This document shows, piece after piece, positions 34,042-56,297 of a stretch of 64,000 bases of DNA. A model generated the notes under the pieces. It was not told the origin of the DNA. It saw only the letters and a program-made list of their open reading frames with translations, and did no database searches. Each line of letters opens with the position of its first letter. The stretch's first letter is position 1. Location of the stretch: NCBI RefSeq assembly GCF_011742875.1, contig NZ_JAAQTL010000001.1:2542001-2606000 (forward strand), read 5' to 3'. A program made the position numbers and the translations under genes. Source of the stretch: Luteibacter yeojuensis (GTDB lineage: Bacteria; Pseudomonadota; Gammaproteobacteria; Xanthomonadales; Rhodanobacteraceae).

Positions 34042-34811
34042 GCGGCTCCACCCACCTGGTCGCCCTGGGCACCATCGTCCGCCGCGAGATCATGCGCATC
34101 ATGCGCATCTGGACGCAGACGCTGATCCCGCCCGCCATCACGATGACGCTGTACTTCGTCATCTTCGGCAAGCTCATCGGCAGCCGCATCGGCACGATGC
34201 ACGGCTTCACGTACATGCAATACATCGTGCCGGGGCTCGTGATGATGAGCATCATCACGAACAGTTACGGCAACATCTCCTCGTCCTTCTTCGGCGCGAA
34301 GTTCGGCCGTTTCGTCGAGGAGATGCTGGTGTCCCCGATGCCCAACTGGGTGATCCTGCTGGGCTACGTCACCGGCGCGGTGGCCCGCGGCGTGATCGTC
34401 GGCGCCCTGGTGCTCGTCATCGCGCTGTTCTTCACCGACCTGCACGTGGCCCATCCCATCGTCACCTTCCTTTCGGTGGTGCTGGGCGCCTCGGTGTTCT
34501 CGCTGGCCGGCTTCGTCAATGCGGTGTTCGCGAAGAAGTTCGACGACATCGCCCTGGTCCCCACCTTCGTGCTCACCCCGCTGACCTACCTCGGCGGCGT
34601 GTTCTACTCGGTGGACCTGCTGGGCGAGCCATGGCACACCATCTCGCTGGCCAATCCCATCCTGTACATGGTGAACGCCTTCCGTTTCGGCGTGCTGGGC
34701 GTGAGCGACGTGCCCATCGTCACCGCCTTCGTGGTGATGCTGGTGTTCGTCGCCGGCCTGACCGCCGTGGCCCTGCGCCTTCTCACCCGTGGCGTGGGCC
34801 TGCGCTCCTAA
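34038..34811 (+). CDS. yadH: ABC-2 type permease
   Basis: The 257-residue product has about six membrane helices and the ABC-2 signature region PLTYLGGVFYSVDLLGEPW near 190. It matches YadH in length (256) and pairs with YadG by a 4-base overlap, which implies translational coupling. Substrate unknown. Confidence 0.94.
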   Translation: MSGSTHLVALGTIVRREIMRIMRIWTQTLIPPAITMTLYFVIFGKLIGSRIGTMHGFTYMQYIVPGLVMMSIITNSYGNISSSFFGAKFGRFVEEMLVSPMPNWVILLGYVTGAVARGVIVGALVLVIALFFTDLHVAHPIVTFLSVVLGASVFSLAGFVNAVFAKKFDDIALVPTFVLTPLTYLGGVFYSVDLLGEPWHTISLANPILYMVNAFRFGVLGVSDVPIVTAFVVMLVFVAGLTAVALRLLTRGVGLRS

Positions 34812-34815
34812 GGCG

Positions 34816-35535
34816 ATGCGGGTCAACAAGTACATCAGCGAGGCAGGCCTCTGCTCGCGGCGCGAAGCCGACGACCTCCTGGTCGCCGGCCGCGTCACCA
34901 TCAACGACGTCGTCGTCGGCATGGGCGCGAAGGCGCTCGAAGGCGATGTCGTCAAGGTCGATGGCGAGGTCGTCGTCGCCCGCACCCTCATCGCCAGCCC
35001 GGCGAAGAGTCGCGGCGTGTACATCGCGCTGAACAAGCCGGTGGGCATCACCTGCACCACCGACACCACGGTGGACGGCAACATCGTCGACTTCGTCGAC
35101 CATCCGCAGCGCATCTTTCCCATCGGCCGTCTCGACAAGGATTCGGAAGGCCTGATCCTGCTCACCAGCAACGGCGACATCGTCAACGAGATCCTGCGCG
35201 CCGAGAACCACCACGAGAAGGAATACCTCGTGGCGGTGAACAAACCGGTGACCGACGAGTTCCTCGCCGGCATGGCACGCGGCGTGCGTGTGCACGGACA
35301 GATGACGCGGCCGTGCAAGGTGCGCCGCATCGCGAAGTTCGGCTTCGCGATCATCCTCACCCAGGGCCTCAACCGGCAGATCCGCCTGATGGCCGCGGCC
35401 TTCGGGTACCGCGTAACCCAGCTGCGCCGCGTGCGCATCGTCAACGTGAAGCTCGGACACCTGAAAGTCGGCCAGTGGCGCAACCTGACCGAAGCGGAAC
35501 TCAAGGGGCTCTTGCCCGGCCGTAGCCACTGGTAA
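34816..35535 (+). CDS. rluF: 23S rRNA pseudouridine synthase, RluF-like
   Basis: The 239-residue protein has an N-terminal S4 RNA-binding domain (MRVNKYISEAGLCSRREADD) and an RsuA-type catalytic domain with D107 in GRLDKDSEG. The LTQGLNRQIRLMAAAFGYRV stretch is RluF-like; E. coli RluF modifies U2604. It is shorter than E. coli RluF (290), lacking the extended tail. It begins 4 bases after yadH, so the three genes are probably one transcript. Confidence 0.85.
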   Translation: MRVNKYISEAGLCSRREADDLLVAGRVTINDVVVGMGAKALEGDVVKVDGEVVVARTLIASPAKSRGVYIALNKPVGITCTTDTTVDGNIVDFVDHPQRIFPIGRLDKDSEGLILLTSNGDIVNEILRAENHHEKEYLVAVNKPVTDEFLAGMARGVRVHGQMTRPCKVRRIAKFGFAIILTQGLNRQIRLMAAAFGYRVTQLRRVRIVNVKLGHLKVGQWRNLTEAELKGLLPGRSHW

Positions 35536-35709: not shown

Positions 35710-36831
35710 ATGAAGTCACTCTTCAGGCTGGCAGTCTTTGCCAGTCTCTTCCCCTTATCGTCCCAGGCCGGAGACCTTCCCTCCCTCGACGCCTACAAAG
35801 AACTCGTTCGCTTCCGTGTGCAGGACACAAAGGCCAATGAAGTATTCGCAGGGACGACCGGCGAGTTTCTTGCCCAGCTCCTCGTCGTTCCTTCGTCGCC
35901 TTACAGCGACCTCGTCGAGTACCCCAGGATGACCAACGAGGTATGGTGGCCGACCTTCATCGACAGCCTCCCGACGCGGCTTCCGGATGCCGAAAGAAGC
36001 TTCCTCGGCCTCCTGCAATGGCAAGTTGGCCTGAGCAAGGCCCGTCCGGGCATCGAGGTCGCCGCCAGCGACGAAGCCGTCGCGGCTTATCGCGGCATGC
36101 AGTCCGCGGCCAGCGCCCTCAAGGCGGAAGTCGATCCCGATATCTTCTGGAAGGCGCGGGACATGAATGGATCGCACTACGCTCAAGCGGCTGGTGAGGC
36201 CGTCGCGTTGCAGATCCTGCGCGACCAGATGCGCCGCAACGATCCGGCGACCTATGGCTCGCGCGCGATCTGGCCCGACGTGTTGAGCCGATACCTGGAA
36301 CAGACCGATCCAGAGGCTATCAGCAACCGTGACAGGAATTATCTCGGCGGCCTTGTCCGTCAGGCAATCACCAGCATGCCGTCGTTCGGGGATGGCGCGA
36401 GTCGTAGCGGTCTCCCGGTCGTGTACCGCGTGGCGCGCGTCGCCGCGGCCTATGCGGATGCCGAAGGCTATGTGATGGTCGGTGGCTACTGTACCGGCAA
36501 CGAACCGCGCAGCGACCTGCCCCACCAGTGGCCGCGCAAAGCGGAGCCGCTTTGCTTCGTTGCCGCCAACGATCGCGCGGTGCGGGCATGGTACCGCCAG
36601 CAGCTGCATCTGGAGACCATCAGCCGCCCGCCGGAGATCGAGCACTCGGGATTGTCCAGGCTGATGCACTGGATCGGCGCCGCGCTCCTGGTCGCCGATT
36701 TCGCCGCCTTCATCGAGGTGGCCGACTCCCTCATCGCCGACGACATGCTGTCCGAAGGGCTTATCGAAGAAGAGGACGCCGCACTGGCGGGCGAGCGGGC
36801 CGAACGGCTCACCTGCGGAGGCAACCCATGA
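35710..36831 (+). CDS. Exported array protein, family A copy 1
   Basis: The 373-residue product begins the seven-gene array. It has a signal peptide (MKSLFRLAVFASLFPLSSQA), a helical body with SPYSDLVEYP, DIFWKARDMNGS and LPVVYRVARVAAAYADAEGY, and a hydrophobic segment at about 315-337. Three cysteines (C261 in GGYC, C282 in PLCFVAANDRAV, C369 in LTCGG) recur in all three family A genes. I recognise no known family. The next gene starts inside its stop (ATGA). The start context CCCGACATGA is shared with copy 2. Confidence 0.8.
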   Translation: MKSLFRLAVFASLFPLSSQAGDLPSLDAYKELVRFRVQDTKANEVFAGTTGEFLAQLLVVPSSPYSDLVEYPRMTNEVWWPTFIDSLPTRLPDAERSFLGLLQWQVGLSKARPGIEVAASDEAVAAYRGMQSAASALKAEVDPDIFWKARDMNGSHYAQAAGEAVALQILRDQMRRNDPATYGSRAIWPDVLSRYLEQTDPEAISNRDRNYLGGLVRQAITSMPSFGDGASRSGLPVVYRVARVAAAYADAEGYVMVGGYCTGNEPRSDLPHQWPRKAEPLCFVAANDRAVRAWYRQQLHLETISRPPEIEHSGLSRLMHWIGAALLVADFAAFIEVADSLIADDMLSEGLIEEEDAALAGERAERLTCGGNP

Positions 36832-37781
36832 ACAAGCTTCGACGGATATATCGGGCCTGCGCCGCGACGGCAGCCTTCCTTTTCCTTTCGCAGGCCTCGT
36901 GGGCCGGAAAAGAGGGAGGCATCGACATCCATGTCGGCTCCGGCAACGTACTTGGCATACTGGAAGAGGAAACCCATCTCCATCTGGACGCTTTTCGGCG
37001 GGTCGTCCTGACGCGCCCCGCGTTCCATAGCAACACCTTCCTCATGAACGGATTGCAGAAGCGACTGTGGGACTCCACGGTTGCACGGTTTGACTATAGC
37101 TACAAGAACGCTTCCGGGGAGACCGTCACGCGTACCTATCATGCACGCAGCGGCCAGTCGATCGGAGGAACGATGGATGACATCGCCCATGGCGGCTCAT
37201 CCTCCGGATCTTCCTCGTCCGGGTCGGGCAAGACCCCAACCGCGAACGATCTCGATATCCTGAAAGACGCCGAAGAACGCCGGTTTTACACGGCAGACAA
37301 CGCGGAGCATGTCCGCGTGCGCAATCTCGATGCGAGGGGATCGAAGGTCAAAGTCACCAATGGCGACTTCAAACGTGTACGCGATGCCGAATTGAAGACG
37401 CTTCGGCATATTGAGTTCGACCTGCGGAATGGCGTCATCCCCGAGGGCGGGCGGATCACGGGCTATGTCAGCCAGCCTCCCTGCGACTCCTGCACGGAGG
37501 TGATCCGCAACTTCGGCGAGGACTACGAGATCGCAGGCGACATCTATCATCTCGTCCCCGCGCCGCGGAATGCTGCCCCGGCTGACGGGGAGCTCGGGGA
37601 AAGCAACAAGGCGGCAAGTCGTTACTTCAGGGTACGGAAGCGAGCTATCGAGTTCGCCCTCCAGGCCAACCGCGTGACCACTCCCGCTCCCGCCACTTGG
37701 GGTGCCGATGCCTCGGAAACGATCGGTGCCTTGCAGGCAGCCGAGCAAGGCGAGCTGAACGCATTGCCGTGCCGTAAATGA
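36828..37781 (+). CDS. Exported array protein, family B copy 1 (deaminase-like core)
   Basis: The 317-residue product has a signal peptide ending near SQASWA. The N-terminal part contains STVARFDYSYKNASGE and RTYHARSGQSIG, then a Ser/Gly linker, then a C-terminal core with D186-x-E188-x-K (RDAELKTLRHIEFDL), PEGGRITGY and C219-D-S-C222 (PPCDSC). This order resembles the zinc site of the deaminase fold, but Asp stands where His or Cys normally is. Function unknown. Its start overlaps the stop of the family A gene before it. Confidence 0.8.
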   Translation: MNKLRRIYRACAATAAFLFLSQASWAGKEGGIDIHVGSGNVLGILEEETHLHLDAFRRVVLTRPAFHSNTFLMNGLQKRLWDSTVARFDYSYKNASGETVTRTYHARSGQSIGGTMDDIAHGGSSSGSSSSGSGKTPTANDLDILKDAEERRFYTADNAEHVRVRNLDARGSKVKVTNGDFKRVRDAELKTLRHIEFDLRNGVIPEGGRITGYVSQPPCDSCTEVIRNFGEDYEIAGDIYHLVPAPRNAAPADGELGESNKAASRYFRVRKRAIEFALQANRVTTPAPATWGADASETIGALQAAEQGELNALPCRK

Positions 37782-37813
37782 TTGGACGGCCATTCATCTC
37801 CTGCCCGAGGACC

Positions 37814-38887
37814 ATGAACAGAACCTGCTCCATCGTCGCCCTGCTTTCCATCCTCATGAGCACCAGCATGGCGATCGACGCCGGCTCCGTCGTCGTCGAC
37901 GATCTCGATCTCGACGAAGGCAACGTCGTCGCCTTGCTGGAGCAAACCAGTCAGTATTATGTCGACGCCATGCACGAACTGGTGAACGCTCGTTACAAGG
38001 ACGAGTACAGGGCGATCCGCTGGGAGGATCTGGAGAACGCGATGACGCAGGCCCGGGTCGCCCGCGTCGAATACCACTTCGAGATCGACGGTCGCCCTCG
38101 GGTGCGGGTTTACCATGCGATGGGTGGCGTCCCCCTGGGCGTCATGGGTGAAGATATCTTCAGGGGACCGACGCGCCCGGGCACCCCGGTCACCCCGACG
38201 GATGCCGGCCCTCCCGAAGCGCACTGGGAGATCGACGAGGGCGATCCCGCTCCAAACGAGCCTCAACGCGATCTTGCCGGCCTCGACGCTGACGATGAGG
38301 TTTTCTTCGATCACTTCGATGACATCGACGTCCGTGCGCGCATCCTCCCCGGGCAGGGGTCCGCCTTGCCGTCGTTCCATATCGATGGACAGGATCGCGC
38401 CCTGGATCCGGAGATGAAGGCACTACGGCACATCGAAGACGATATGAAGAACAAGATCGTCCCTTCAGGGGGGCGCATCGATGCGAAGATCGGCGGCATC
38501 CTATGTTCTTCCTGTCGTCACGCCATGCAGACCATGGCCCGCGCCTACGACGTCGACATCCGCGCGACACAGATATTCCAGACCATGCCGCGGCGCCGGC
38601 AGGACGCCATGCTGCAATCGGGACGGGCGCGCATGGCAAGGGGACGCCTGGTCGACGCATCCTCCGGCCGTCCGCTCCTTGCCCACGACGTACTCAACGG
38701 TGCCCGTGAAGCGCAGGTCCGGAGAAGCCTCGGCGTACGCTCCCTGGACCGGTCCCTCAAGGGCGTGCAGTGGTCGAAGCGGTCGTTCCTCCCCGCTGCC
38801 ATGGGCAGTACGTCGGACGCGGAATCGCCACTCACGCGACGCGCAAGCAATCCGGATGTGGACGAGCCGTCGACACCCGGATGCTGA
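37814..38887 (+). CDS. Exported array protein, family C copy 1 (deaminase-like core)
   Basis: The 357-residue product is homologous to family B over most of its length but forms a separate subgroup. The signal peptide is MNRTCSIVALLSILMSTSMA. It has ARVEYHFEIDGRPRVRVYHA, GPTRPGTPVTP, and a core with D198-x-E200-x-K (LDPEMKALRHIEDDM) and C231-S-S-C234. A basic C-terminal region follows. ATG at 37814 has GAGG upstream; the ATG at 37778, overlapping the previous stop, would add 12 residues and is possible. The 206 bases after it hold no visible gene. Confidence 0.8.
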   Translation: MNRTCSIVALLSILMSTSMAIDAGSVVVDDLDLDEGNVVALLEQTSQYYVDAMHELVNARYKDEYRAIRWEDLENAMTQARVARVEYHFEIDGRPRVRVYHAMGGVPLGVMGEDIFRGPTRPGTPVTPTDAGPPEAHWEIDEGDPAPNEPQRDLAGLDADDEVFFDHFDDIDVRARILPGQGSALPSFHIDGQDRALDPEMKALRHIEDDMKNKIVPSGGRIDAKIGGILCSSCRHAMQTMARAYDVDIRATQIFQTMPRRRQDAMLQSGRARMARGRLVDASSGRPLLAHDVLNGAREAQVRRSLGVRSLDRSLKGVQWSKRSFLPAAMGSTSDAESPLTRRASNPDVDEPSTPGC

Positions 38888-39093
38888 ACCCATGAGGGCC
38901 GCTTCGCCGACACGGATCGACTCCGCGACGGCCTCCTGTTCCGCATCGCGATTGGGTATCGTTCCCCGCCCATCGCGTCCAATCATCGATGGTCGACACC
39001 GCTCATGCGCGTTCGCGATATCCCCGCAAGGCGCCAGCGGGAGGCGACGCGCCGTTCGCGGGAACGCGGTGTGCTCGCAAAGGATCTCCCGAC

Positions 39094-40266
39094 ATGATGT
39101 CACCTCCACGTCTGGCGCTCGCCGCCTGCCTGCTCCCCCTCGCCACCGTCGCCGTCCACGCGACGGACGCGGGCCGTGAAACAGCCGTTGTCCCCAAGGC
39201 CGGCACGGGCGCGTCGTTCGACATGTACGAAGCACTGTCCCGCTTCCGGATCCGGCACAAGAGAACGGCCAGTGCCCTCGAATCCACGACTGCCGGCCTC
39301 CTGAGACAGCTCCTGAAGGAGCCCGCGTCACCATACAGCGACCTGGTCGACCATCCGCCCATGACCAACCATCTCGCGTGGCGGCGCTTCACGACGGACC
39401 TCTCGTCGACGTTTCCGGATGCAGGCGAGGTCGCACTCGATACATTGCGGTGGCAGATGGGACTCACGAAGGCACGCCCCGGCGTGGACATCGCCGTCGA
39501 CGAACCCGCCATTACCCGCTACCGCGGCCGCGAAGCCGCCGCCAACGCGCGGAAGGCGGAGATCGACAGCGACATCTTCTGGAAAGCGCGCGACATGAAC
39601 GGCTCTCGCCTTGCCGAGGCCGCCGGGGAAGCAGTGGCACTGCAGATGCTTCGCGACCAGGTACGACACACCGACCCGAAGGATCATCGCGCACTGGACA
39701 TCCAGCCCGGCGTACTCGCCCGATACATGGCGCAGACCCACCCTGAGGCCATCAGCGGAGCCGATCGCCGCTACCTTGCCGAGATGCTGGGCATCGCACT
39801 CGCCGCAAGGCACTCACCGGTGGAAGGCGGCGGGAGCGGACAGTTACCGACGATCTACCGTGTAGCGCGTACGGCAGCGGCGTATGCCGATGCGAACGGC
39901 TACCTGACCCCGGGAGGCTATTGCGACGGCGACGCCCCCCGAATCCGGGCACCGGACTCACCCTTCTTCGACGAGCCATCCGCCTTGTGCTTCGTCGCCG
40001 CCACCGATCGCGCCGTTGCCCGGTGGTACCGGCGGCAGTCGCATGTCGAAGCTGTCCGGCACCCTCCGCCGCCGGAGCACGGCGGTTTCTACAATCTCCT
40101 CCACTGGGTCGGCGCGGTATTCGTACTGGTCGATTTCGCGGCCTTCATCGAGGTTACGGAAGCACTGACCGCCGAAGACATGGTCCTCGAAGGTGTGCTC
40201 GAAGACGCCGATGCGGAACTCGCCAGCAGCCGCTCCTCCCGGCTCACCTGCAGGATCTCCCAGTGA
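39094..40266 (+). CDS. Exported array protein, family A copy 2
   Basis: The 390-residue product is clearly the closest paralogue of copy 1: SPYSDLVDHPPMTN, GLTKARPGVDI, DIFWKARDMNGSRLAEAAGE and ALCFVAATDRAVARWYRRQ. A signal peptide ends near VAVHA. The hydrophobic segment FYNLLHWVGAVFVLVDFAAF is conserved in position. The three cysteines are kept (GGYC, ALCF, LTCR). The start is chosen from AAGGATCTCCCGACATGA, almost the same context as copy 1. The next gene overlaps its stop (GTGA). Confidence 0.8.
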   Translation: MMSPPRLALAACLLPLATVAVHATDAGRETAVVPKAGTGASFDMYEALSRFRIRHKRTASALESTTAGLLRQLLKEPASPYSDLVDHPPMTNHLAWRRFTTDLSSTFPDAGEVALDTLRWQMGLTKARPGVDIAVDEPAITRYRGREAAANARKAEIDSDIFWKARDMNGSRLAEAAGEAVALQMLRDQVRHTDPKDHRALDIQPGVLARYMAQTHPEAISGADRRYLAEMLGIALAARHSPVEGGGSGQLPTIYRVARTAAAYADANGYLTPGGYCDGDAPRIRAPDSPFFDEPSALCFVAATDRAVARWYRRQSHVEAVRHPPPPEHGGFYNLLHWVGAVFVLVDFAAFIEVTEALTAEDMVLEGVLEDADAELASSRSSRLTCRISQ

Positions 40267-41219
40267 AGCACGCACTCACCATATTCCGCGTAAGCCTCCT
40301 GACCGTCGTCCTGCTGCCGCACGCGCTGTGGGCCGGGGTCGTGAACATCGAACCGGGCGCGGCCTCGGCGAAACTGGCGAAGACGGCCCAGGTCCACACG
40401 ACCGCCTTCCAGATCGCGCTCGCGGATCATCCGGAATTCCTAAAGAGCGGCAAGCAGATGCGAAAGCTGCGCGCGAAGCTCCGCGGCCAGACCATCGCGC
40501 GTGTCGAATACATGCATCCCGGCGGAACGCGCGTCTACCACGGTCGCAGCGGACATTCGATCAGGAGCACGCTCGCCAGCCTCAAGTCGGGAAACAGGTC
40601 ATCACGGCCATCCGAGGGAACGACCACATCGGGGTCGGACAGTGAAACGAGTCTTGTCGACTTGAGTGACGACGTCGCTGCGGACGCTGCGGAGCAGGTG
40701 TACTATCCGGAAAATACACGCGAAGACGCGCGTGCACGGCTTCTGCCGGAAGAAGAATCCGTCGTGCAGGCCCGCGACATCGGTGACGGGCACGTCCATG
40801 CATGGGATGCGGAAATCAAGGTGTTTCGCACGATCGAGAACGACATAAGGACCGGCGTCGTGTTGCCCGGCGGCAAGATCACCGGTTATGTCAGCAAGAC
40901 TATCTGCGCATCCTGTCGTGCGGCCATCGAGGAGTTCGCCGGCGAATTCGACGTCACTGTCGATCTGTATGAAATGATCGAGGCCGGGAAGGATTTGCCG
41001 CGCACGCCCACGACGGTGATCGAGAAAAGCCAGGCCAGCTCGCGCCACCTCGCCAAAGCGCGAAAGATCGACGTTGACCACCGGATCGATCCTCAACGGA
41101 TTGGCAACCGCCGGCACGTCTCGTGGCCCGGCGAAGCACGTATCGACGCATTCTTTCTCGAGGAATCGGCACAACGCGCAACGGAGGACGCCGGTGAGCT
41201 TGCGGCATGCGATCGGTAG
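40263..41219 (+). CDS. Exported array protein, family B copy 2 (deaminase-like core)
   Basis: The 318-residue product starts with GTG inside the stop of family A copy 2. A signal peptide ends near PHALWA. It has IARVEYMHPGGTRVYHGRSG, then D182-x-E184-x-K (WDAEIKVFRTIENDI), LPGGKITGYVS and C215-A-S-C218. Its length is almost the same as B copy 1, with a similar layout. The last 26 bases overlap the start of family A copy 3. Confidence 0.8.
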   Translation: MKHALTIFRVSLLTVVLLPHALWAGVVNIEPGAASAKLAKTAQVHTTAFQIALADHPEFLKSGKQMRKLRAKLRGQTIARVEYMHPGGTRVYHGRSGHSIRSTLASLKSGNRSSRPSEGTTTSGSDSETSLVDLSDDVAADAAEQVYYPENTREDARARLLPEEESVVQARDIGDGHVHAWDAEIKVFRTIENDIRTGVVLPGGKITGYVSKTICASCRAAIEEFAGEFDVTVDLYEMIEAGKDLPRTPTTVIEKSQASSRHLAKARKIDVDHRIDPQRIGNRRHVSWPGEARIDAFFLEESAQRATEDAGELAACDR

Positions 41220-42348
41220 GATGGCTGCGGTGGCTGCGATGGCGGCGCTTGCAGCAGCCGGCCCTGCCGTCGGGACGAACATTGCCGATGTCGATATCGA
41301 CATCGTCTCGCAGTGGCAGCGTGAGCGCCTCGAAAACGTCGGCGCCGTCACGGCCCTGAACCGAAGCACGGCCTCGATCATGCGCCAAATACTCGACGAT
41401 CCGGCATCGCCCTATAGCGGCTTGCGGCCTTCGCCCGACTTCATGAACGACGTCGACTGGGCAAGCATGCTCGCCAGGACGCCGACTGGCGCAGGTACCA
41501 GCGAGAATGCCCTGGCTGTGCTGCAATGGGATCTCGGCGCCACCCGCGCGCGACCGGACATCGATGTTCCGGTAGGAGCGGCGACCGGTTATCGCGATCG
41601 TTTCGTTGCGGCAAGCACACGCAAGGCCGATGTGGATGCCGATATTTTCTGGCACATGCTCGACCTCACCGGATACCGTCATTCGACCAGGGCTGCCTAC
41701 TACGCGGTCGGCATGCAGATACTCCGAGCCCAGATCCTGGCCACCGCGCCCGATCGCCGCGCCGCGATCGGTGTGGACAAGGAGCTGTTCGATCGTGTCA
41801 TGCTGGCTCGGCATCTGGGTCACCTGACGTCGCATGACCTGACCTATCTCTCGACCCTGGTCCAGCATCGGCTCATCCACTGGCGAGTCGGCGGGATGGC
41901 GTCGACCGGTCTTCGCCAGCTTCCCGTCGCCTTCCGCATCGCGCGCGTGGCCGCCGCTTATCGCGACGCCGAAGGCTACTTCATGGCCGCGCCTTGCCAG
42001 GCCGATGCCAGCCCCGCCGACCCGGCGACGGGCGAGGGGCAGGACGATGGCACCCGTGACCTGTGCTTCGTGGCCGCGACCGACCGCGCCGTGCATCGCT
42101 GGTATCTCGACGAGTCACGACGCCAGGCCAGCTACCGCCCACGGCAGGAATCCTCGCACCGGACCTCCTTGATCGCGGCCGTCATGGCAGTGGCCTTCCC
42201 GTTGCTGGAAATCGCGAGCATGGTCGAGGTGATGGAAGCCGCCATCGCGGACGACATGGTCACTACCGAAGTCCTGACGGTAGAAGAAGCCGAGATGGTT
42301 TCGGAACGCGCGGATCTTCTTACCTGCCGCATTCCCGGAATGCCATGA
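41194..42348 (+). CDS. Exported array protein, family A copy 3 (diverged)
   Basis: The 384-residue product is the most diverged family A member: SPYSGLRPSPDF, DADIFWHMLDLTGYRH, LPVAFRIARVAAAYRDAEGY and DLCFVAATDRAVHRWYLDE. Cysteines are conserved at the three positions (AAPC, DLCF, LTCR). The GTG at 41194 is preferred: GGAGG lies directly upstream and it gives a full signal peptide (MSLRHAIGRMAAVAAMAALA). ATG at 41221 is an alternative. No counterpart exists between B1 and C1 in the first set. Confidence 0.78.
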   Translation: MSLRHAIGRMAAVAAMAALAAAGPAVGTNIADVDIDIVSQWQRERLENVGAVTALNRSTASIMRQILDDPASPYSGLRPSPDFMNDVDWASMLARTPTGAGTSENALAVLQWDLGATRARPDIDVPVGAATGYRDRFVAASTRKADVDADIFWHMLDLTGYRHSTRAAYYAVGMQILRAQILATAPDRRAAIGVDKELFDRVMLARHLGHLTSHDLTYLSTLVQHRLIHWRVGGMASTGLRQLPVAFRIARVAAAYRDAEGYFMAAPCQADASPADPATGEGQDDGTRDLCFVAATDRAVHRWYLDESRRQASYRPRQESSHRTSLIAAVMAVAFPLLEIASMVEVMEAAIADDMVTTEVLTVEEAEMVSERADLLTCRIPGMP

Positions 42349-43418
42349 AGAATCCCGGACGCGCCGTCTTCGTCCTCGCCTGCCTGGCGGGCGCCAGTTC
42401 CCTGGCCCATGCGGGCAATGTCGTCACGGACGACCTGAGCCTCGACGAGGGCAACGTGACGGCCCTCCTCGAGGCCACCAGCCAGCGGTACGTCGACGCC
42501 ATGCATCGGCTGATTGAAGCGCGGTATCGCGACGATTACCGGGCCATCCGCTGGGAAGACCTCGAAATCTCGATAACCAGGGCCCGCGTGGCCCGGTTCG
42601 AATACCACTACACGGCGAACGGCGCCGATCGCACGCGGGTGTACCACGCCATGGGCGGTGAGCCGCTGAGTTCGCTTGGCGGCCAGATCTTCGAGGGACC
42701 GACCCGGGCGGGAACCCCGGTCAGCCCCGACTCCCCCGCATCCATGGACGAGGCGGAAGTGTTCCGTGAGCCGCCGGCGCCCACGATCGATCGCGTGGCC
42801 GCCGATGCGGCGGACGATGCGCTCTTTTCGGGATTCGACGACGTCGATATCCGCGCACGCATCCTTCCCACCGGGAATTCGGTCCTGCAGCCGTTCCCCA
42901 TCGACGGCGAGGACAAGGCGCTCGATCCCGAGTTCAAGCTGCTGCGGCATATCGAACACGATATCCAGAACGGGATCGTTCCCTCCGGCGGGCGCATCCA
43001 GGGCGCCATCGGCGGCAATCTCTGCTCCTCGTGTCGTTACGCCATGAAGAGCCTGTCCAACGAGTACGGTATCGAGGTGCGCGTCACCCAGATGTTCGCC
43101 TCGCTTCCGCGGCGAGAGCAGGATGCGCTAGTGCAGTCCGGTCGTGCCGTGCTCAAGGGCCGGCTACTCGTCGACGCCCGGTCCGAGCGCCCGCTCCTGG
43201 CCTACGATGCCCTGAATCGGGCCCGCACGGCACAGGTGCAACAGAAGCTCGGCCCCCGTGCCATGGGCCGGACGTTCAAGGGGATGCTCTGGCGGAATCG
43301 ATCGTTCCGATTCAAACTCGACCCGCCACGCCTGCGCCGCGTATCGGAAAGTCCTCCGGACTCCAGCCCGCTCACGGCGAACCGCGACGTCGAGGAGCCC
43401 ACGCCCCGATGCGACTGA
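42345..43418 (+). CDS. Exported array protein, family C copy 2 (deaminase-like core)
   Basis: The 357-residue product matches family C copy 1 in length and in blocks: signal peptide MKNPGRAVFVLACLAGASSL, VVTDDLSLDEGNVTALLEAT, EGPTRAGTPVSP, D194-x-E196-x-K (LDPEFKLLRHIEHDI) and C227-S-S-C230. It starts inside the stop of family A copy 3 (ATGA). It ends 49 bases before dbpA and closes the array. Confidence 0.8.
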   Translation: MKNPGRAVFVLACLAGASSLAHAGNVVTDDLSLDEGNVTALLEATSQRYVDAMHRLIEARYRDDYRAIRWEDLEISITRARVARFEYHYTANGADRTRVYHAMGGEPLSSLGGQIFEGPTRAGTPVSPDSPASMDEAEVFREPPAPTIDRVAADAADDALFSGFDDVDIRARILPTGNSVLQPFPIDGEDKALDPEFKLLRHIEHDIQNGIVPSGGRIQGAIGGNLCSSCRYAMKSLSNEYGIEVRVTQMFASLPRREQDALVQSGRAVLKGRLLVDARSERPLLAYDALNRARTAQVQQKLGPRAMGRTFKGMLWRNRSFRFKLDPPRLRRVSESPPDSSPLTANRDVEEPTPRCD

Positions 43419-43467: not shown

Positions 43468-44844
43468 ATGACCGATTTCCAGCAACTGCCCCTTTCGCCC
43501 GCCCTGCTCGCCGCCGTCGAGGGCATCGGTTATGCCTCGATGACGGCGATCCAGCGCGAAGCCCTGCCGCCCATCCTCGAAGGCCGCGACGTCATCGCCC
43601 AGGCGCGCACCGGCAGCGGCAAGACGGCGGCCTTCGCGCTCGGGCTCCTGCAGCGCATCGACGTACGACAGGTGAGGTTGCAGGCCCTCGTGCTCTGCCC
43701 CACCCGCGAGCTCGCCGATCAGGTCAGCAAGGCGATCCGGCGCTTCGCGGCGAACCTGCCGAACGTGAAGCTGCTCACGCTGTGCGGCGGCATGCCGCTG
43801 GGGCCCCAGCTCGCCTCGCTGGAACACGATCCGCACATCGTCGTGGGCACGCCGGGGCGCGTGCAGGAACACCTCAAGCGCGGCAGCCTGCATGGCGGCG
43901 GCATCAAGGTGTTCGTGCTGGACGAGGCGGACCGCATGCTCGACATGGGTTTCGAGGAAGCCATGGACGACATCGTCAAGCGCATCGCGAAGCATCATCA
44001 GACGCTGCTCTTCTCCGCCACGTATCCCGACGCGATCCGCGCGATAAGCGCGCGCATGCAGCATGACCCGGTCGATATCGCCGTGGAGGAAACACACGAC
44101 GAGAGCAGCATCGAGCAGCGCGTCGTGGAAGCGGAGCCTTCCGTGAAAGCCGACGTGCTGGGGCGCATCCTCACCCAGGAGAAGCCCGAGGCCGCCCTCG
44201 TCTTCTGCAACATGCGCAAGGATACCGAGAGCGTCGCCGCCGAACTGGACCGCCGCGGTTTCTCCGCACTTGCCCTGCATGGCGACCTCGACCAGCGCGA
44301 TCGCGACGAGGTGCTGGTGCGTTTCGCCAACCGCAGCTGCACCGTGCTCGTCGCCACCGACGTGGCCGCGCGCGGCCTCGACATCGCCAACCTCCCGCTG
44401 GTGGTGAGTTACGACGTCGCGCACGATCCCGACACGCATACGCATCGCGTGGGCCGCACCGGCCGCGCGGGTGCAACGGGCCTCGCCATCGTCCTGGCCG
44501 GTTCGCGCGAGCTCAACAAGCTGCGTGCGATCGAGGAACGCGTCGGCGCTCCGCTGGGCCGCTATCCGGCGAAGGGTGGCGGCGACGGGCGCAAGGTGCT
44601 CAACCTCGCACCGATGAAAACCCTGGTGATCGACGGCGGCCGCAAGGACAAGATGCGCCCCGGCGACATCCTCGGCGCGCTCACCGGCGACGCGGGGCTC
44701 GACGGCAAGGACATCGGCAAGATCGACGTCTACGCGACGCGTGCTTATGTCGCCATTCGCCGCGACCTCGCCAACAAGGCGCTGGAACGGTTGCGCGCGG
44801 GAAAAATCAAGGGTAGGAACTTCCGCGTCCGCCCGTTGGGCTGA
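43468..44844 (+). CDS. dbpA: ATP-dependent RNA helicase DbpA
   Basis: The 458-residue DEAD-box helicase acts in 50S subunit assembly. It has the Q-motif (MTAIQREALP), Walker A ARTGSGKT at 46-53, DEAD at 152-155, and HRVGRTGRAG in the second RecA lobe. The C-terminal 75 residues form the DbpA RNA-binding domain that recognises 23S helix 92 (GDILGALTGDAGL; RAYVAIRRDLA). ATG at 43468 is chosen; an overlapping ATG at 43461 is in another frame. Confidence 0.96.
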   Translation: MTDFQQLPLSPALLAAVEGIGYASMTAIQREALPPILEGRDVIAQARTGSGKTAAFALGLLQRIDVRQVRLQALVLCPTRELADQVSKAIRRFAANLPNVKLLTLCGGMPLGPQLASLEHDPHIVVGTPGRVQEHLKRGSLHGGGIKVFVLDEADRMLDMGFEEAMDDIVKRIAKHHQTLLFSATYPDAIRAISARMQHDPVDIAVEETHDESSIEQRVVEAEPSVKADVLGRILTQEKPEAALVFCNMRKDTESVAAELDRRGFSALALHGDLDQRDRDEVLVRFANRSCTVLVATDVAARGLDIANLPLVVSYDVAHDPDTHTHRVGRTGRAGATGLAIVLAGSRELNKLRAIEERVGAPLGRYPAKGGGDGRKVLNLAPMKTLVIDGGRKDKMRPGDILGALTGDAGLDGKDIGKIDVYATRAYVAIRRDLANKALERLRAGKIKGRNFRVRPLG

Positions 44845-44925: not shown

Positions 44926-47436
<2,511 letters not shown>

Positions 47437-47471
47437 CCCCGTTATGTTACGCAACCCCGCACCGCACCGTC

Positions 47472-49670
47472 TCAGCCCTCGGCGTTTTCCTGCACCGCCG
47501 GACGGGACGCCTCGCGGGCCGCCGCCTCGAAGGGCTGCAACGAGCGGAACTTGAGCCTGTAGTCGTCGGAGACACGCTTGGCGTCCTCGCCGTTCGCGAT
47601 GACCTTGGGCGTGATGAGCACGATCAGTTCGGTGCGTCCGCTGCCGCTCGAACGATCGCGGAACAGGGCGCCGAGCAGCGGGATGCGCGACAGTCCGGGA
47701 ACGCCGTCTTGCTTCGTGTGGGCGCTGTCCTGGATAAGCCCACCCAGCAAGACGGTCTGACCGCTCTGCACCGCCACCTGGGTGGTGAGCTTGCGCTTGG
47801 AAATCGCAAGATTGCCCTCGGTTTTCCTTGTCTCGTCGGGCCGGCTCACTTCCTGGGTGACGTCGAGGTAGACCAGGCCACCGGGATTCACCCGCGGCCG
47901 CACGTCGAGGATGACGCCGGTGTCCTTGTACTCGACCTGTCCCACCGGATTTCCACTGCCGAAGCCAGGGTTCACGAACGTCTGCGTGACCGGAATCTGG
48001 TCGCCCACCTGAATGCGCGCTTTCCGGTTGTTGACGACGACGAGGGAGGGCGCCGAAAGCGTCCTGGTGTTCCCGCTCTGTTCCATCGCGCGGATCGCCA
48101 CCGATACATTCCTGTTCGCGAACGAGTAGTAGAAGGTATCCTCGGACTTCGCCGGTGCGTTGCCCAGCTTCCAGCGCTGCTTGTTGCCGGGCTGGGTCAC
48201 CTCGCCGTCGCCACCGGCGAGGCCTTCCAGGTACCACTGGACGCCGAAACGGAATGCGTCGACCAGATTGACCTCCAGGATGCGCGTTTCGATCTGCACC
48301 TGCAGCGGCGTGGCGTCGAGCCGCTCGATCGCCTGACGGATCTCCGCCCATTGCGAAGGCCGCGCGCGGATCATCAACTGGTTGTTCGCATCGACGGCGG
48401 TGATCCGTATCCCGGACTTCGCGTCGCCCGGGTGGCCGGACGAGGCCGCGGGTTTCGGCGGACTGAAGAACGCCGACGCTTCGTCCGCCGGGTTGTCGCC
48501 GGTAAGCGAGGCCGGGTCGTCGCTCTTCGCGTCGATTCCCAGGCCGCCGAACAGCGAGGTCGCCGAAAGACCGGGCGCGATGCTGGGCGGCGAGTCGCCA
48601 GCCACCGCACCGCCGAAGACGTTGCCGACGTATTTCGCGACATCCGAGGCCAGGAGATTGCGTACCTCGTAGACGAACAGGCGCGGTTCGTTGCCGCCAC
48701 CGCGGTCGATGCGCGCGATCCAGTCGCCCACCTGGTCGACATGCTCGGCGCGCGTGGCGATGACGACCAGCGCGTTGGTCCGCTCGATGGGAATGAAACG
48801 GAACAGGCCCGCGATGGGCGTATTGCTCTTCTCGCCGAACACCGATTCCAACGCCGGCAGCAACTCGCCGACGTAGGCGTTCTCGAGACTGAAGACGCCG
48901 ACCGACATGCCGGCCACCCAGTCGACGTCGAAGGTCTCGATGGTTTCCTGGTAATTGGCCAGTTCGTCGCGCGTGCCGGCCACGACGAGGACATTACGCG
49001 CGGGATCGGCGAGGAGGATCGCGCCGGGCAAGGCAAAGGGCTCGAGCAGCTTGGCCATCGCCGGCGCCGCCACGTGGCGCAGCGGGAACAGTCTCGCGTT
49101 CGTTCCCGCGGCGGGCTTGGCCGCCTTCAGGCTGGGCGCGATACGCCCTGCCACGGCACGGCTGGCCGGCAGGATGCTGTAGCGGCCGTGCTCGCGCACG
49201 AGCGCATTGCCCGTCCAGGAAAGCAGGGTTTCGAGGATCGGCAAGGCTTCTTCCTGCTTCACCGGCTTGGCGGTGGAAAAGGAAATGGCGCCTTCCACGC
49301 CGGGCGCGATCGAATAATTGGCATCGAGGAGATCGCCGAGGATGGCCTTGACCACGGCTTCGATCGGCTGGTTCTCGAAGTTGAGCGTGACCGCGCCCTC
49401 GCCCTTCGCTTCCGGCTTCGGCGTGGCGACCCCGTGCGGACGGATGAAGTGTCCATTGCCGCGGCTGATGTCGCCGATGCGGCGCCCGGCCGGCGTGTCC
49501 GACGCCTCCGGCGCGTCCTCTCCGCCAAGCGGAAGCGCCGCCGGTACCGGGTCGTCGACACCGGCCAGGGCTTCGCGCTCGAGGACGCCATCCGATTTCA
49601 CGTTCTTCGAGGTGCAAGCCACCGTCAGCAAGGCCGCAAGGACGGCCGTGCCGAGCATTCCGCGTTTCAT
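47472..49670 (-). CDS. gspD: Type II secretion outer-membrane secretin
   Basis: The 732-residue protein forms the T2SS outer-membrane channel. Its N-terminus (MKRGMLGTAVLAALLTVACTS) is a signal peptide with a possible lipobox cysteine at 19, as in lipoprotein-like XpsD. N-domains cover about 95-450. The secretin core near the end includes TQTFVNPGFGSGNPVG, VEYKDTGVILDVRPRV and QSGQTVLLGGLIQDS. It is the last T2SS gene, in the Xanthomonas position rather than between C and E as in enterobacteria. Confidence 0.95.
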   Translation of the reverse strand: MKRGMLGTAVLAALLTVACTSKNVKSDGVLEREALAGVDDPVPAALPLGGEDAPEASDTPAGRRIGDISRGNGHFIRPHGVATPKPEAKGEGAVTLNFENQPIEAVVKAILGDLLDANYSIAPGVEGAISFSTAKPVKQEEALPILETLLSWTGNALVREHGRYSILPASRAVAGRIAPSLKAAKPAAGTNARLFPLRHVAAPAMAKLLEPFALPGAILLADPARNVLVVAGTRDELANYQETIETFDVDWVAGMSVGVFSLENAYVGELLPALESVFGEKSNTPIAGLFRFIPIERTNALVVIATRAEHVDQVGDWIARIDRGGGNEPRLFVYEVRNLLASDVAKYVGNVFGGAVAGDSPPSIAPGLSATSLFGGLGIDAKSDDPASLTGDNPADEASAFFSPPKPAASSGHPGDAKSGIRITAVDANNQLMIRARPSQWAEIRQAIERLDATPLQVQIETRILEVNLVDAFRFGVQWYLEGLAGGDGEVTQPGNKQRWKLGNAPAKSEDTFYYSFANRNVSVAIRAMEQSGNTRTLSAPSLVVVNNRKARIQVGDQIPVTQTFVNPGFGSGNPVGQVEYKDTGVILDVRPRVNPGGLVYLDVTQEVSRPDETRKTEGNLAISKRKLTTQVAVQSGQTVLLGGLIQDSAHTKQDGVPGLSRIPLLGALFRDRSSGSGRTELIVLITPKVIANGEDAKRVSDDYRLKFRSLQPFEAAAREASRPAVQENAEG

Positions 49671-49706
49671 GATGTGATTCCTCCTTCCGTGGGGGCAAGA
49701 CGCCCG

Positions 49707-50486
49707 CTATCTCGAATCCGTGGCCTGCTGCTGTCGTTGCTGCTGTTCCATGCGGCGCCTCTGGACCGCCTGTTTCAGGGCCTCGATGCGGGCGCGCTGG
49801 AGCGCGTCGTCATCCTGCCTGGGCTGCGGTGCGCGCGCCGTGCCGGCGGCGGCCGGTCGCGGGAGCGCCGGGCCGGTCATGCCGGACGACGCCTGCCGCT
49901 CGATGTGCACGCCGTTGCCGGTGGCGGGTTGCGGACGCGACGGCACGGGCGGCTGACCGGGTATCGGCGGCATCCCGGGACGTTGCGGGCCTTTCGCGGG
50001 TGCGTCGGGAGCGGCCACCTTCAAGGTAAGTTCGCGCCGCTCGCCGCCGCTTTCGAACACCGCGCTGCGTGGCGACAGGGATGCCAGCGTCCAATGGCCG
50101 TCGGCGAGCGCGCTGCCCTCCTTCACCCGCACGGTACTGTCCTTGGTGCGGTCGCGCAGCAGCGCCATGCGCAGGCCGGGGGTCACGATGATGCCGGTGA
50201 GTTCGAGGTCGCCGATGTTTCCGGTGTCTTCGCCCGTTTCGGCCACGGCGGCCGGTTTGCGATCCGGCATGAAGAGCGGGCGCTGCCAGACCTCGGCGAA
50301 TCGCGCCAGCAAGGTGGGCGGCGGCATGGCCACCGGCCGCACGGCCGGCAAGGGCTGGGGTTCGCCCGGAGGGTCCCAGCGTACGCCGCGCCCCAAGCCC
50401 AGGACCAGCGACACGACGAACAGCGCCAGCACGATGGCCACGATGGCGAGGACCGGCGTAAGGCGTCGCTGACCGGCCGCGTTCAC
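49707..50486 (-). CDS. gspN: Type II secretion GspN/GspC-like inner-membrane protein
   Basis: The 259-residue product has one N-terminal membrane helix (VLAIVAIVLALFVVSLVLGL), a periplasmic GspC-HR-like region (ELTGIIVTPGLRMALLRDR), and a proline/glutamine-rich tail. It takes the XpsN position: no separate GspC gene is present, and XpsN serves as its functional counterpart in Xanthomonas. GTG at 50486 overlaps the gspM stop. The symbol follows locus order and could be named gspC. Confidence 0.8.
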   Translation of the reverse strand: MNAAGQRRLTPVLAIVAIVLALFVVSLVLGLGRGVRWDPPGEPQPLPAVRPVAMPPPTLLARFAEVWQRPLFMPDRKPAAVAETGEDTGNIGDLELTGIIVTPGLRMALLRDRTKDSTVRVKEGSALADGHWTLASLSPRSAVFESGGERRELTLKVAAPDAPAKGPQRPGMPPIPGQPPVPSRPQPATGNGVHIERQASSGMTGPALPRPAAAGTARAPQPRQDDDALQRARIEALKQAVQRRRMEQQQRQQQATDSR

Positions 50487-51085
50487 GAGGACACCTTCGC
50501 CACGCGCACCGCGTGGATGTAACCCGAGACGGTGAACTGGACTTCCATCGGTGCCGCCGCGCCGTTGCGTGCGGCGACGGGATTGCGATAGATGCTGAAG
50601 TCTTCGATGAAGAGATAAGGGGTTTCTTCCTCGATGTCGTGCAGCACCGCGGCCATCGGTTGCATCTGGCACCGCAGGCTGATGTTGACGGTGACTTTCC
50701 GGTAGGGATCGCCGCCTTTCTCCTGGCTGGGCACGGGCATCTTCTGGACGACGTCGCAGGCGCCATCCTCGCGATGCGCGGCGGCGACGTCCACGATGCG
50801 CTGCATGAGGCCGGCGGCCGCCGCGTTCGCGTCGTCGCCGGGCAGGAACGCATCGCTGCGCGTCTGCCCCTGCTCGAGCGCGGCGAGGCGTTTCAGCAGC
50901 TGCGGACGCTCCGCGATGGCCGCGGCATAACGGCGCTCCGTGTCGCGGAGGTCGCTCATCTGGCTCGCGATCGCCAGCTGCGGCGCCACGAACCACCAGT
51001 GGATGAGGACGAAATAGCCGGCCACCAGCACGGCCACCAGCAGCAGGATCGCAGCGGCGCGGGATTCAGCGGGCTTCAGGCGCAT
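50483..51085 (-). CDS. gspM: Type II secretion protein GspM
   Basis: The 200-residue bitopic protein has one N-terminal membrane helix (AAAILLLVAVLVAGYFVLIH) and a periplasmic ferredoxin-like domain near the C-terminus (VTVNISLRCQMQPMAAVLHD). It partners GspL at the inner-membrane platform. Its start overlaps the gspL end by 20 bases and its stop is shared with the gspN start. Confidence 0.88.
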   Translation of the reverse strand: MRLKPAESRAAAILLLVAVLVAGYFVLIHWWFVAPQLAIASQMSDLRDTERRYAAAIAERPQLLKRLAALEQGQTRSDAFLPGDDANAAAAGLMQRIVDVAAAHREDGACDVVQKMPVPSQEKGGDPYRKVTVNISLRCQMQPMAAVLHDIEEETPYLFIEDFSIYRNPVAARNGAAAPMEVQFTVSGYIHAVRVAKVSS

Positions 51086-52214
51086 TCGCGGTCTCCGGCT
51101 TCGGCATCAGTGCCTTCGCCTGCATGTAGAAGCGCTCCTTGCCGGAGGTGGGATCGGACTGGATGGTGCCCTGGAAGCTCGGTTCGCCGAGGGTGCGCGC
51201 GCCCTTGAGCGCATCGATGAGCCGCGCCGCCTGCGGGCTCTGGCCCTGGAAGCCGAGCTGGCCCGTACCGTTGAGCGTGAACCGCTCGAGCCAGGTGTCG
51301 TCGGGCAGGCGATGGGTCAGTTCCTCCAGCACGGGCATGATGGAAGGACTTTCGGTTTTCTTGCGCGCCAGGAATCCCGACGCGCCGGCGCTGTCGGTCA
51401 GCCGCTGGCGCAATGCCGAGACCTTCTGCGCGTCGGCGCGCATCGATTCGACGGTGGCGCTCATCGTGGCGAGCGCGGCGTTCCGGTTGTGCAACCAGGT
51501 GAGCATGCCCGCGAACACGAGCAGCACGATCGCGGCGACGAGCGCGGCATTGAGGCGCCGGCGCCGGTCGACGCGCCGCGGCGCGCGCGCCGGAGGGAGC
51601 AGGTCGACGCCGGCCAGGGCGCTGCCCTGGGCCACGTCGACGCGATCCGGGTGGATGCCCAGCACGGCGAGCTCGTCGAGCAGGGGATCGAGCGTGGACC
51701 GCGGGGTGGCGGCGAGCTCCGCGACGAAGCGGCCTTCGCTGGCGGTCTCCTCGAGTTCGCGCACGCCGTAGTGGATGTCCTCCGCACGGAACGGGGTTTG
51801 CCTGTCGAGGTCGAAGCCGACCACCTGGCGCAGGTTGTCGCGGGCCGCGACCGGCAGGACGAGACGGCGGCGCAGTACCTGCGCGGACGGGAGCACGAGC
51901 GCCACCCGGCGGTCGGTCGGATCGGCTTCGCGCAGGGCATGGGCCAGCACACCGGCGCGGTGTTCCGCGCCATCGATATCGGCGATTTCCGCGAGGCTGG
52001 CCGCCTCGCCGGCGCGGCGCAGCCGCCAGCCGTCCTCGCCTCGTTCGATGGCGTACCAGCGCTGCCCTCCCGCAAACGCCGCGCGCCAGCGGGCCGGAAC
52101 GAGGGGGGACAGTTCGCCACCCCACCAGCGCAGGAAGCCCGGCAGCGCGCTGCCTCGCCAGGCGCGGCGCATGCGATCGAGCTGTAGCTGGGAGGCGTCC
52201 TGCAATGTCGTCAT
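51066..52214 (-). CDS. gspL: Type II secretion protein GspL (PilM/PilN-like)
   Basis: The 382-residue product has a cytoplasmic actin-like domain (about 40-200; LRQVVGFDLDRQTPFRAEDI), one membrane helix (NAALVAAIVLLVFAGMLTWL), and a periplasmic PilN-like domain with LEELTHRLPDDTWLERFTL. It links the GspE ATPase to the platform. The ATG overlaps the gspK stop (ATGA). Confidence 0.9.
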   Translation of the reverse strand: MTTLQDASQLQLDRMRRAWRGSALPGFLRWWGGELSPLVPARWRAAFAGGQRWYAIERGEDGWRLRRAGEAASLAEIADIDGAEHRAGVLAHALREADPTDRRVALVLPSAQVLRRRLVLPVAARDNLRQVVGFDLDRQTPFRAEDIHYGVRELEETASEGRFVAELAATPRSTLDPLLDELAVLGIHPDRVDVAQGSALAGVDLLPPARAPRRVDRRRRLNAALVAAIVLLVFAGMLTWLHNRNAALATMSATVESMRADAQKVSALRQRLTDSAGASGFLARKKTESPSIMPVLEELTHRLPDDTWLERFTLNGTGQLGFQGQSPQAARLIDALKGARTLGEPSFQGTIQSDPTSGKERFYMQAKALMPKPETANAPEAR

Positions 52215-53065
52215 TCAGCGTCTCCTTCGCGCCAACGCAACACGGCGTAGGGCTGGTTTCCCGATCTTATCCCACGCAGTCGGATCGTCGATGTAAGGGA
52301 ACTCCTGGTTCCGTCGTCAAGGATCGCTTCCGCACGTATCGTGTGCGTGACACCGTTACCGCCCGCGACGGTGGAAGCGTCGACCTGGCCGCGCTTCGCC
52401 AGGATCGCGGCCACGCCCGCCTGGCCCAGGCCGGGAATCGCCGCCAGCGCCAGTGGCTGCGCGTGTTCGCTGTTGGGCCGCTCGCGACCGGACCAGATGG
52501 TCAGCGCGGGAGCGACGGCCGTCCAGGTCTTCGCGTCCATGCCCAGCACCATGCGCGCTTCCTCCACCGAGGCGAAGGGGCCGTTGCGCGGACCGTAAGC
52601 CAGCCCCGCCGCCTCGTATTGCGGTTTCTTCGCGCCGTTGGGCGAAGCCGCGTCGCCGGGACGCCGCCAGTCCTGGACGGCGGCGGAAAGACGGTGGGCC
52701 TTGTCGTCCGCCACGCCCGCCGCCTTGAACAGTCCGGTGAGCACGTCGCCGGATGCGGCGTTCAGGTCCACCTTGCCGTCCTCGTCGACGATGGTGATGG
52801 CTACCTTCGCACCGTCGAACTCGAAGGGATAGACGCGGCCATCGGCGACCCAGCGCGACGCGAAGTCGCGGCTCTGCAGACCTTCGATCGCACGCATGAT
52901 GCCGGCCTCGGCCGCGTAGTGCGCACGCGTCTGCGCGTACTGGTAACGGGCCTGCAAGCCCTCGGTGCGAGCCAGCGCGGCGAACCCGCCGAGCATGATC
53001 GCCAGCAGGGTGCATCCCCACAGGACGATGAGCAGCGCCACGCCTCGGTCGCGTCGGATCGTCAT
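52211..53065 (-). CDS. gspK: Type II secretion minor pseudopilin GspK
   Basis: The 284-residue product is the large tip pseudopilin. The prepilin site is G8/V9 (RRDRG|VALLIVLWG). Position +5 is isoleucine rather than glutamate, as is normal for GspK. The SAM-like domains include DEDGKVDLNAASGDVLTGLF and ALAAIPGLGQAGVAAIL. Start overlaps the gspJ stop. Confidence 0.92.
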   Translation of the reverse strand: MTIRRDRGVALLIVLWGCTLLAIMLGGFAALARTEGLQARYQYAQTRAHYAAEAGIMRAIEGLQSRDFASRWVADGRVYPFEFDGAKVAITIVDEDGKVDLNAASGDVLTGLFKAAGVADDKAHRLSAAVQDWRRPGDAASPNGAKKPQYEAAGLAYGPRNGPFASVEEARMVLGMDAKTWTAVAPALTIWSGRERPNSEHAQPLALAAIPGLGQAGVAAILAKRGQVDASTVAGGNGVTHTIRAEAILDDGTRSSLTSTIRLRGIRSGNQPYAVLRWREGDAE

Positions 53066-53727
53066 CGGTTCCCCCGCCCGCCCGGCAGCCGGCCGGCGCT
53101 GAGGCCGTTCCGCGACGCGGACGGATCGATCCGCACGGGCGCGACCATCGCCGGGAACGCGACGTTCCCCTGCACTTCGAGTTCGATCCGCACCAGCGAC
53201 GGCGTGCGCCGCCCGTCGGACCAGGCTTCGGTCCAGTCGCCCGGACGGTTCTGTTCGTCCATGCCACGGTAGGCGAACGCGCCCTTGCGGATGCCGCGAA
53301 GGAGGACTTCCGGTTCGCCGAGCGGCTGCGGGTCGCTGCCGTCGGGCGGCAGCAGCGCCAGGCGTACTTCCAGGCGATAACCCGAGTGGCCGTCCTCGAC
53401 CAGCGAGACCGTCTGCAACTGGGGACCGAGCCTCGAAAGGTAGCCCGGCAACGGCGCGACGAAACGCAACGTGTGGTCGTCGCCACCGAACACGATGGGG
53501 TCGCCCTCGTCGGTCTGGTCGAACGGCACGACCAGCGCCTGCGCCAGTTCGCCGCGCAGGAAATTCTGCGCGGAACGTATTTCGTCCATCCGTTCGATGG
53601 CGGCATCGCCGCTGCGCACGATGCGCGTCGCCGTGCTGATGCCCGAGTAGACGCCGAGCAGCACGATCGTCAGCAGCGCGAGCGCCGCGAGCACTTCCAT
53701 GAGACTGAAACCGCCCGCGCGCCTCAT
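53062..53727 (-). CDS. gspJ: Type II secretion minor pseudopilin GspJ
   Basis: The 221-residue product has prepilin cleavage motif AGG|FSLMEVLAALALLTI with E at +5. It is processed by the prepilin peptidase, which is encoded elsewhere. Its start overlaps the gspI stop by ATGA, and its stop is shared with the gspK start. Confidence 0.92.
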   Translation of the reverse strand: MRRAGGFSLMEVLAALALLTIVLLGVYSGISTATRIVRSGDAAIERMDEIRSAQNFLRGELAQALVVPFDQTDEGDPIVFGGDDHTLRFVAPLPGYLSRLGPQLQTVSLVEDGHSGYRLEVRLALLPPDGSDPQPLGEPEVLLRGIRKGAFAYRGMDEQNRPGDWTEAWSDGRRTPSLVRIELEVQGNVAFPAMVAPVRIDPSASRNGLSAGRLPGGRGNR

Positions 53728-54595: not shown

Positions 54596-54618
54596 GGCCG
54601 TGAACCCCGGGTGTCCTT

Positions 54619-55044: not shown

Positions 55045-55069
55045 GGGAAAGCTCCTTGGAACGGTTCGA

Positions 55070-56287: not shown

Positions 56288-56297
56288 GCGCGCGGGC

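Follow-up and report, generated by a model that had tools for sequence, protein, structure and literature searches.

The window described here, a stretch of 64,000 nucleotides from contig NZ_JAAQTL010000001.1 of Luteibacter yeojuensis, contains an array of seven plus-strand genes in the order A1, B1, C1, A2, B2, A3, C2, which is flanked by rluF and dbpA and codes for two unrelated families of signal-peptide proteins. As judged from sequence profiles and structure models, the B/C proteins almost certainly adopt a deaminase fold, and their sequences relate them to the BURPS668_1122 toxin deaminases (PF14424). We favor the interpretation that they form exported effector pairs with the A proteins, in which A acts as carrier or protective partner. 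The complete mechanism, with every A-B or A'-C pair representing a two-protein exported deaminase effector that is probably released by a type II secretion system (T2SS), is a tentative proposal that could well be correct. The array and its two families had already been reported in a first-pass annotation, and all open reading frames (ORFs) as well as the homologies within the families were confirmed; what had been overlooked is that B/C is a recognizable BURPS668_1122-like deaminase from the world of polymorphic toxins.

The assignment of B/C is based on its core motif and on profile and fold matches. Full alignments show the DxE motif in 69 of 70 members and the CxxC motif in all 71, which conforms to the published [HCD]xE plus CxxC pattern of the BURPS668_1122 family. 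The PF14424 profile recognizes 19 of 32 members at E<=0.01 (best value 9.6e-9), with B1 itself as a weak match of 27.0 bits, below the cut-off of 29.6, and PF14424 is listed as precomputed annotation for B1 and three relatives in a protein search. The predicted fold matches deaminases, including nucleoside and base deaminases, and the nearest relatives in sequence are toxin deaminases rather than nucleoside deaminases. An NCBIfam profile search yielded nothing close to a cut-off, and B1 had no match among phages. Partial matches of about 100 residues had raised the suspicion of variable toxin tips, which was ruled out by the full alignments with their constant motif, and a Faecalibacillus match (L061; 52 residues at 32% identity) was set aside. 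The deaminase identity as such is not new, since one B homologue from Luteibacter already has a UniRef name starting with "Deaminase of polymorphic toxin". Members are 249-362 amino acids long, not counting a 116-residue fragment (L044_3688), which was also excluded from the trees. By sequence, B and C constitute a single family unrelated to A (identities of 33% for B1/B2, 26% for B1/C1, 24% for B1/C2, and 55% for C1/C2, and in family A of 51% for A1/A2 and 32% for A1/A3).

The pairing of the two families is evident from a gene set of 67 A and 71 B/C genes, collected from the window and 25 fetched stretches of 23 genomes. A B/C gene directly follows A on the same strand in 66 of the 67 cases, the sole exception being stretch L050, where B precedes A, and 25 of these 66 junctions overlap by 4 nucleotides. 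None of the 67 A genes occurs alone, and three full-length B/C genes with intact motif lack an A gene of their own (C1 of the window, L038_8904, and L052_11961). The trees of the partners agree with r 0.71 for 65 of the 66 pairs (quick trees; one A record of L056 was left out here and in the selection and neighbor analyses, and the three over-long ORFs of L056, L053, and L058 had been trimmed beforehand), compared to a mean of 0.19 and a maximum of 0.47 in 2000 reshufflings within genomes. A and B partners are thus inherited jointly, although the agreement of the trees speaks to inheritance rather than contact. An A clade comprising 19 members is matched by one of 19 B members, and an A' clade of 18 members by one of 19 C members. 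Since A-B-A'-C is the usual arrangement at the main site, the array of the window is best read from the sequences as a duplicated quartet of this kind in which C1 has lost its A'. The duplication and likely co-expression proposed in the first-pass annotation stand, on the basis of gene layout and trees; the unlinked occurrence of A and B/C that it named as a refutation is almost never seen, and the array is more than a chance arrangement, as is also apparent from the selection values given below. The alternation of the families described there holds only in part, because B1 and C1 are adjacent.

Within the array, 4-nucleotide overlaps are present at A1/B1, A2/B2, and A3/C2, and two further junctions depend on the start codon: B2/A3 overlaps by 26 nucleotides with the GTG start of A3 or leaves a 1-nucleotide gap with the ATG, and B1/C1 shows a 32-nucleotide gap or a 4-nucleotide overlap if C1 starts at the ATG at 37778. 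The earlier statement that most junctions overlap consequently applies to three to five of the six. The shared start contexts it mentioned are visible for A1 and A2 (CCCGACATGAnGTCA); together with the 206-nucleotide gap between C1 and A2 they suggest a division into two units, A1-B1-C1 and A2-B2-A3-C2. Promoter-like and terminator-like sites between 35400 and 43600 were not in excess over shuffled sequence, and inspection of the tightly spaced window array revealed no small immunity gene (the other 25 stretches were not searched systematically).

The system appears to be restricted to a single genus, identified as Luteibacter through the names of homologues. In genome searches scoring the best first-look candidates (4-8 per genome), A was present in 23 of 233 genomes of the family, all within one of 26 genera, in 20 of 398 genomes of the order (one of 98 genera), and in one of 369 genomes of the class, which is that of the window itself. 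B was found in 23 of 23 genomes of the genus, and the number of A genes per genome ranges from one to five. The main array adjoins rluF in 23/23 genomes, and pairs lie to one side or the other of dbpA, which was found in 13 of 25 fetched stretches, or of hrpB, found in 22 of them. The distance from the array to a T2SS secretin gene is 0.15-4.31 kb in 22 of 23 genomes; the remaining assembly, a draft in about 510 contigs, has the secretin gene on a separate contig. This proximity may predate the array, since a sister genus (g19) has the secretin, hrpB, and an ATP-binding cassette (ABC) gene within 20 kb, with no array found in three stretches. The A and B genes have diverged to identities of 46-91%, compared to 92-100% for flanking genes (27 comparisons from six genome pairs), and their ratios of nonsynonymous to synonymous substitution rates (dN/dS) are 0.14-0.37 versus 0.01-0.13, staying below 1 in 27/27; these values cover best matches above 40% identity, with faster members such as B1 and B2 of the window against L040 left out, and include several dS values above 1. 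Both families are under purifying selection, yet evolve much faster than their neighbors.

Family A has no recognizable relative outside the genus Luteibacter among the sequence sources examined. The model of A2 (predicted local distance difference test score, pLDDT, of 75) is all-helical with a C-terminal helix of 36 residues, and all 67 proteins keep G122, R255, R258, A261, C276, C298, D304, and W310 (counted from the second Met of A2). Foldseek searches of PDB and BFVD with the model gave no match at E<=0.001, which does not prove a new fold, and VIA matches fell mostly on the long helices at residues 328-390. For 31 members, a Pfam scan returned a single chance match (E 0.042) and no immunity family, and a PDB sequence search no match at E<=5; A2 had no match among plasmids. 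Named homologues are from Luteibacter or plainly labeled "hypothetical protein", apart from one record, P0016, which is filed as "Xanthomonas sp. NCPPB 2632" and may be misnamed, A being otherwise confined to one genus. The C-terminal part shows transmembrane-like hydrophobicity in 37/67 proteins, and the exported effector with a membrane-anchored partner considered in the first-pass annotation is accordingly a possible reading.

By a simple rule used instead of SignalP, with start codons chosen partly by hydrophobicity, signal peptides were called in 63 of 67 A and 66 of 70 B/C proteins, compared to 28 of 680 in the control. The prerequisites of T2SS substrates, namely a Sec signal peptide (by the same rule) and a T2SS in the genome, are therefore present, and onward export by this system would be the simplest next step, because the periplasm offers such a deaminase little obvious substrate. 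A type VI secretion system (T6SS) was ruled out as obligatory route, since VipA occurs in 15 of 23 genomes and was not found in that of the window; a VirB10-like protein is present in 23/23, and a type IV secretion system is still a conceivable route. According to the favored mechanism, A and B would both leave the cytoplasm by Sec and, once folded in the periplasm, form a 1:1 complex, possibly linked by a disulfide between C-terminal cysteines. The complex would then leave through the T2SS, with A, as inhibitor or carrier, shielding or delivering B, which would deaminate nucleic acid bases of another organism, be it a bacterial competitor, a fungus, a protist, or a plant; duplication and divergence of the pairs would provide each genome with a set of specificities. 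The intermolecular disulfide is a prediction only, drawn from the odd third cysteine that most A and B proteins carry close to the C-terminus and that aligns as present in both partners of 60 of the 66 pairs. Weighing against it, both cysteines are lost together in only one of the six exceptions. A more specific version, a binary T2SS-secreted nucleic-acid deaminase whose helical carrier A takes bound, perhaps disulfide-linked, B into target cells, with the paralogous pairs representing target specificities, is unlikely at present.

The strongest competitor, possible if doubtful, is an exported toxin with exported immunity, in which the deaminase B would attack bacteria and A, its cognate inhibitor, would bind it in the periplasm or at the membrane and so protect producers and siblings. 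The A-then-B order, the short overlaps, and the co-inheritance would fit, and the available text of PMC3482391 and PMC7901873 describes Imm2 and Imm3, the immunity proteins assigned to this deaminase family, and SsdAI as all-helical, like the A model. However, the occurrence of motif-intact B/C genes without their own A, and of no lone A, is the reverse of what is expected of toxin and immunity genes, and A matches no Pfam immunity family. Moreover, A is exported, whereas such toxins usually act on targets in the cytoplasm. The idea of a polymorphic toxin/immunity locus raised in the first-pass annotation is further weakened by the same deaminase motif recurring in every B. Less probable still is a periplasmic or extracellular nutrient system, in which free nucleosides, bases, or nucleic acid from the environment would be deaminated by B before being taken up, with A as its partner in assembly or binding: the fixed site in all genomes and the nucleoside and base deaminases among the fold matches agree with it, but B is nearest to toxin deaminases, and genes of housekeeping catabolism seldom diverge so fast or come in several paralogous pairs. 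It is very unlikely that B is a non-catalytic binding protein on a retained deaminase scaffold; the Asp at a position where His or Cys is usual and the weak profile scores point that way, but the motif is nearly invariant, and Asp also occurs in canonical family members and is allowed by the published [HCD]xE motif, as given in the accessible part of PMC3482391. Least credible is an envelope defense in which DNA or RNA of phage or foreign origin would be edited by A-anchored B while crossing the periplasm, a mechanism for which we know of no precedent: the predicted deaminase fold with export signal, the hydrophobic C-terminal helix of A, and the fast evolution would suit it, but PADLOC gave one chance match only (E 0.12), and no defense island was noticed at the main site.

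Known deaminase toxins and the Maf system of Neisseria provide the closest comparisons. The literature places BURPS668_1122-family deaminases at the tips of polymorphic toxins (PMC3482391, in the portion available), whereas B/C is not a tip of a large carrier and has no variable tips. A canonical PF14424 deaminase with the same DxE...CxxC core does form the C-terminus of a 3609-residue two-partner secretion (TPS)/haemagglutinin-repeat protein of one Luteibacter genome (L129:3885-14714, minus strand). This tip, 35% identical to B1 over 60 residues, rides a giant secreted carrier, whereas the array proteins are small, stand-alone, equipped with their own signal peptides, and paired with A. The 3609-residue gene is followed by an overlapping ORF of 119 residues (L129:3529-3888, minus strand), which has no match in Pfam and may encode an immunity protein. 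The DNA deaminase toxin DddA is delivered by T6SS with a dedicated immunity determinant, according to the sections available of PMC7901873; in contrast to DddA (BaDTF1), SsdA (BaDTF2), and DddB (BaDTF3), the array proteins are predicted to be Sec-exported. The Maf system of Neisseria is similar in that mafA often lies directly upstream of mafB, both products are exported, mafA is genus-specific, and the islands occupy conserved sites (PMC4287609, partial text). The same source describes MafA as a predicted lipoprotein, MafB tips as variable, and MafI as conferring immunity, whereas a lipobox-like motif is found in just 1/67 A proteins, the B core is constant, and no MafI-like ORF was seen in the window. 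Luteibacter includes fungal endosymbionts (PMC9040847, as far as its text was available); the main text of this Luteibacter-fungus transcriptome study contains neither "deaminase" nor "type II secretion", the T2SS being mentioned in other words. No report of an exported A-B deaminase pair was found in the available parts of the open-licence literature on toxins, secretion systems, or deaminases of Luteibacter, on PF14424, or on T2SS/secreted deaminases.

Deaminase toxins have been the source of new base editors and also explain mutagenic bacterial antagonism. The known examples named here use injection systems or giant carriers, whereas 71 small, apparently self-exported deaminase relatives share one constant partner protein across all genus genomes examined. 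If active, the A-B pairs would show a new way of delivering deaminases and could supply compact enzymes of this class; if the binary carrier version is true, such delivery would need neither an injection machine nor a giant carrier nor a small immunity gene.

Table 1. The seven array genes and their neighbors, with positions counted from the first nucleotide of the window.
Feature	Position	Strand	Description
A1	35710..36831	+	Predicted exported helical protein, 373 aa
B1	36828..37781	+	Predicted exported deaminase-fold protein, 317 aa; DxE at residues 186-188, CxxC at 219-222
C1	37814..38887	+	Predicted exported deaminase-fold protein, 357 aa; without own A upstream
A2	39094..40266	+	Putative exported helical protein, 390 aa; structure modelled
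B2	40263..41219	+	Predicted exported deaminase-fold protein, 318 aa; GTG start
A3 (A' clade)	41194..42348	+	Putative exported helical protein, 384 aa; GTG start, alternative ATG at 41221
C2	42345..43418	+	Predicted exported deaminase-fold protein, 357 aa
rluF-like gene	34804..35535	+	Name from first-pass annotation; conserved flank of main array
dbpA-like gene	43468..44844	+	Name from first-pass annotation
hrpB	44926..47448	-	HrpB_C, helicase; between array and T2SS genes
gspD	47472..49670	-	T2SS secretin; further T2SS genes (M, L, F, E) up to 58022

The T2SS genes of the window extend from 47472 to 58022. A second secretin gene above the family cut-off is encoded elsewhere in the same genome (G000:C1:1256091-1258043), and only the copy in the window adjoins the array. 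Three additional stretches (L043, L050, and L055) carry pairs without rluF, dbpA, hrpB, or secretin neighbors. The A-B pair of genome G110 (L043:7239-10600) lies beside a CorA-like gene and about 1.4 kb from a T6SS vipA gene, and a related pair in G115 (L050:7836-11032), also beside a CorA-like gene, shows the reversed B-A order. The 116-residue fragment (L044:3727-4077, plus strand) is a C-gene remnant between rluF and dbpA that retains the CxxC half only and has no adjacent A. In L056:13131-15260 (minus strand), part of a B gene and the next A gene share one open frame, and the following B is reported with an in-frame TGA; this frame may be a double pair in decay, or B and A may be naturally fused in it.
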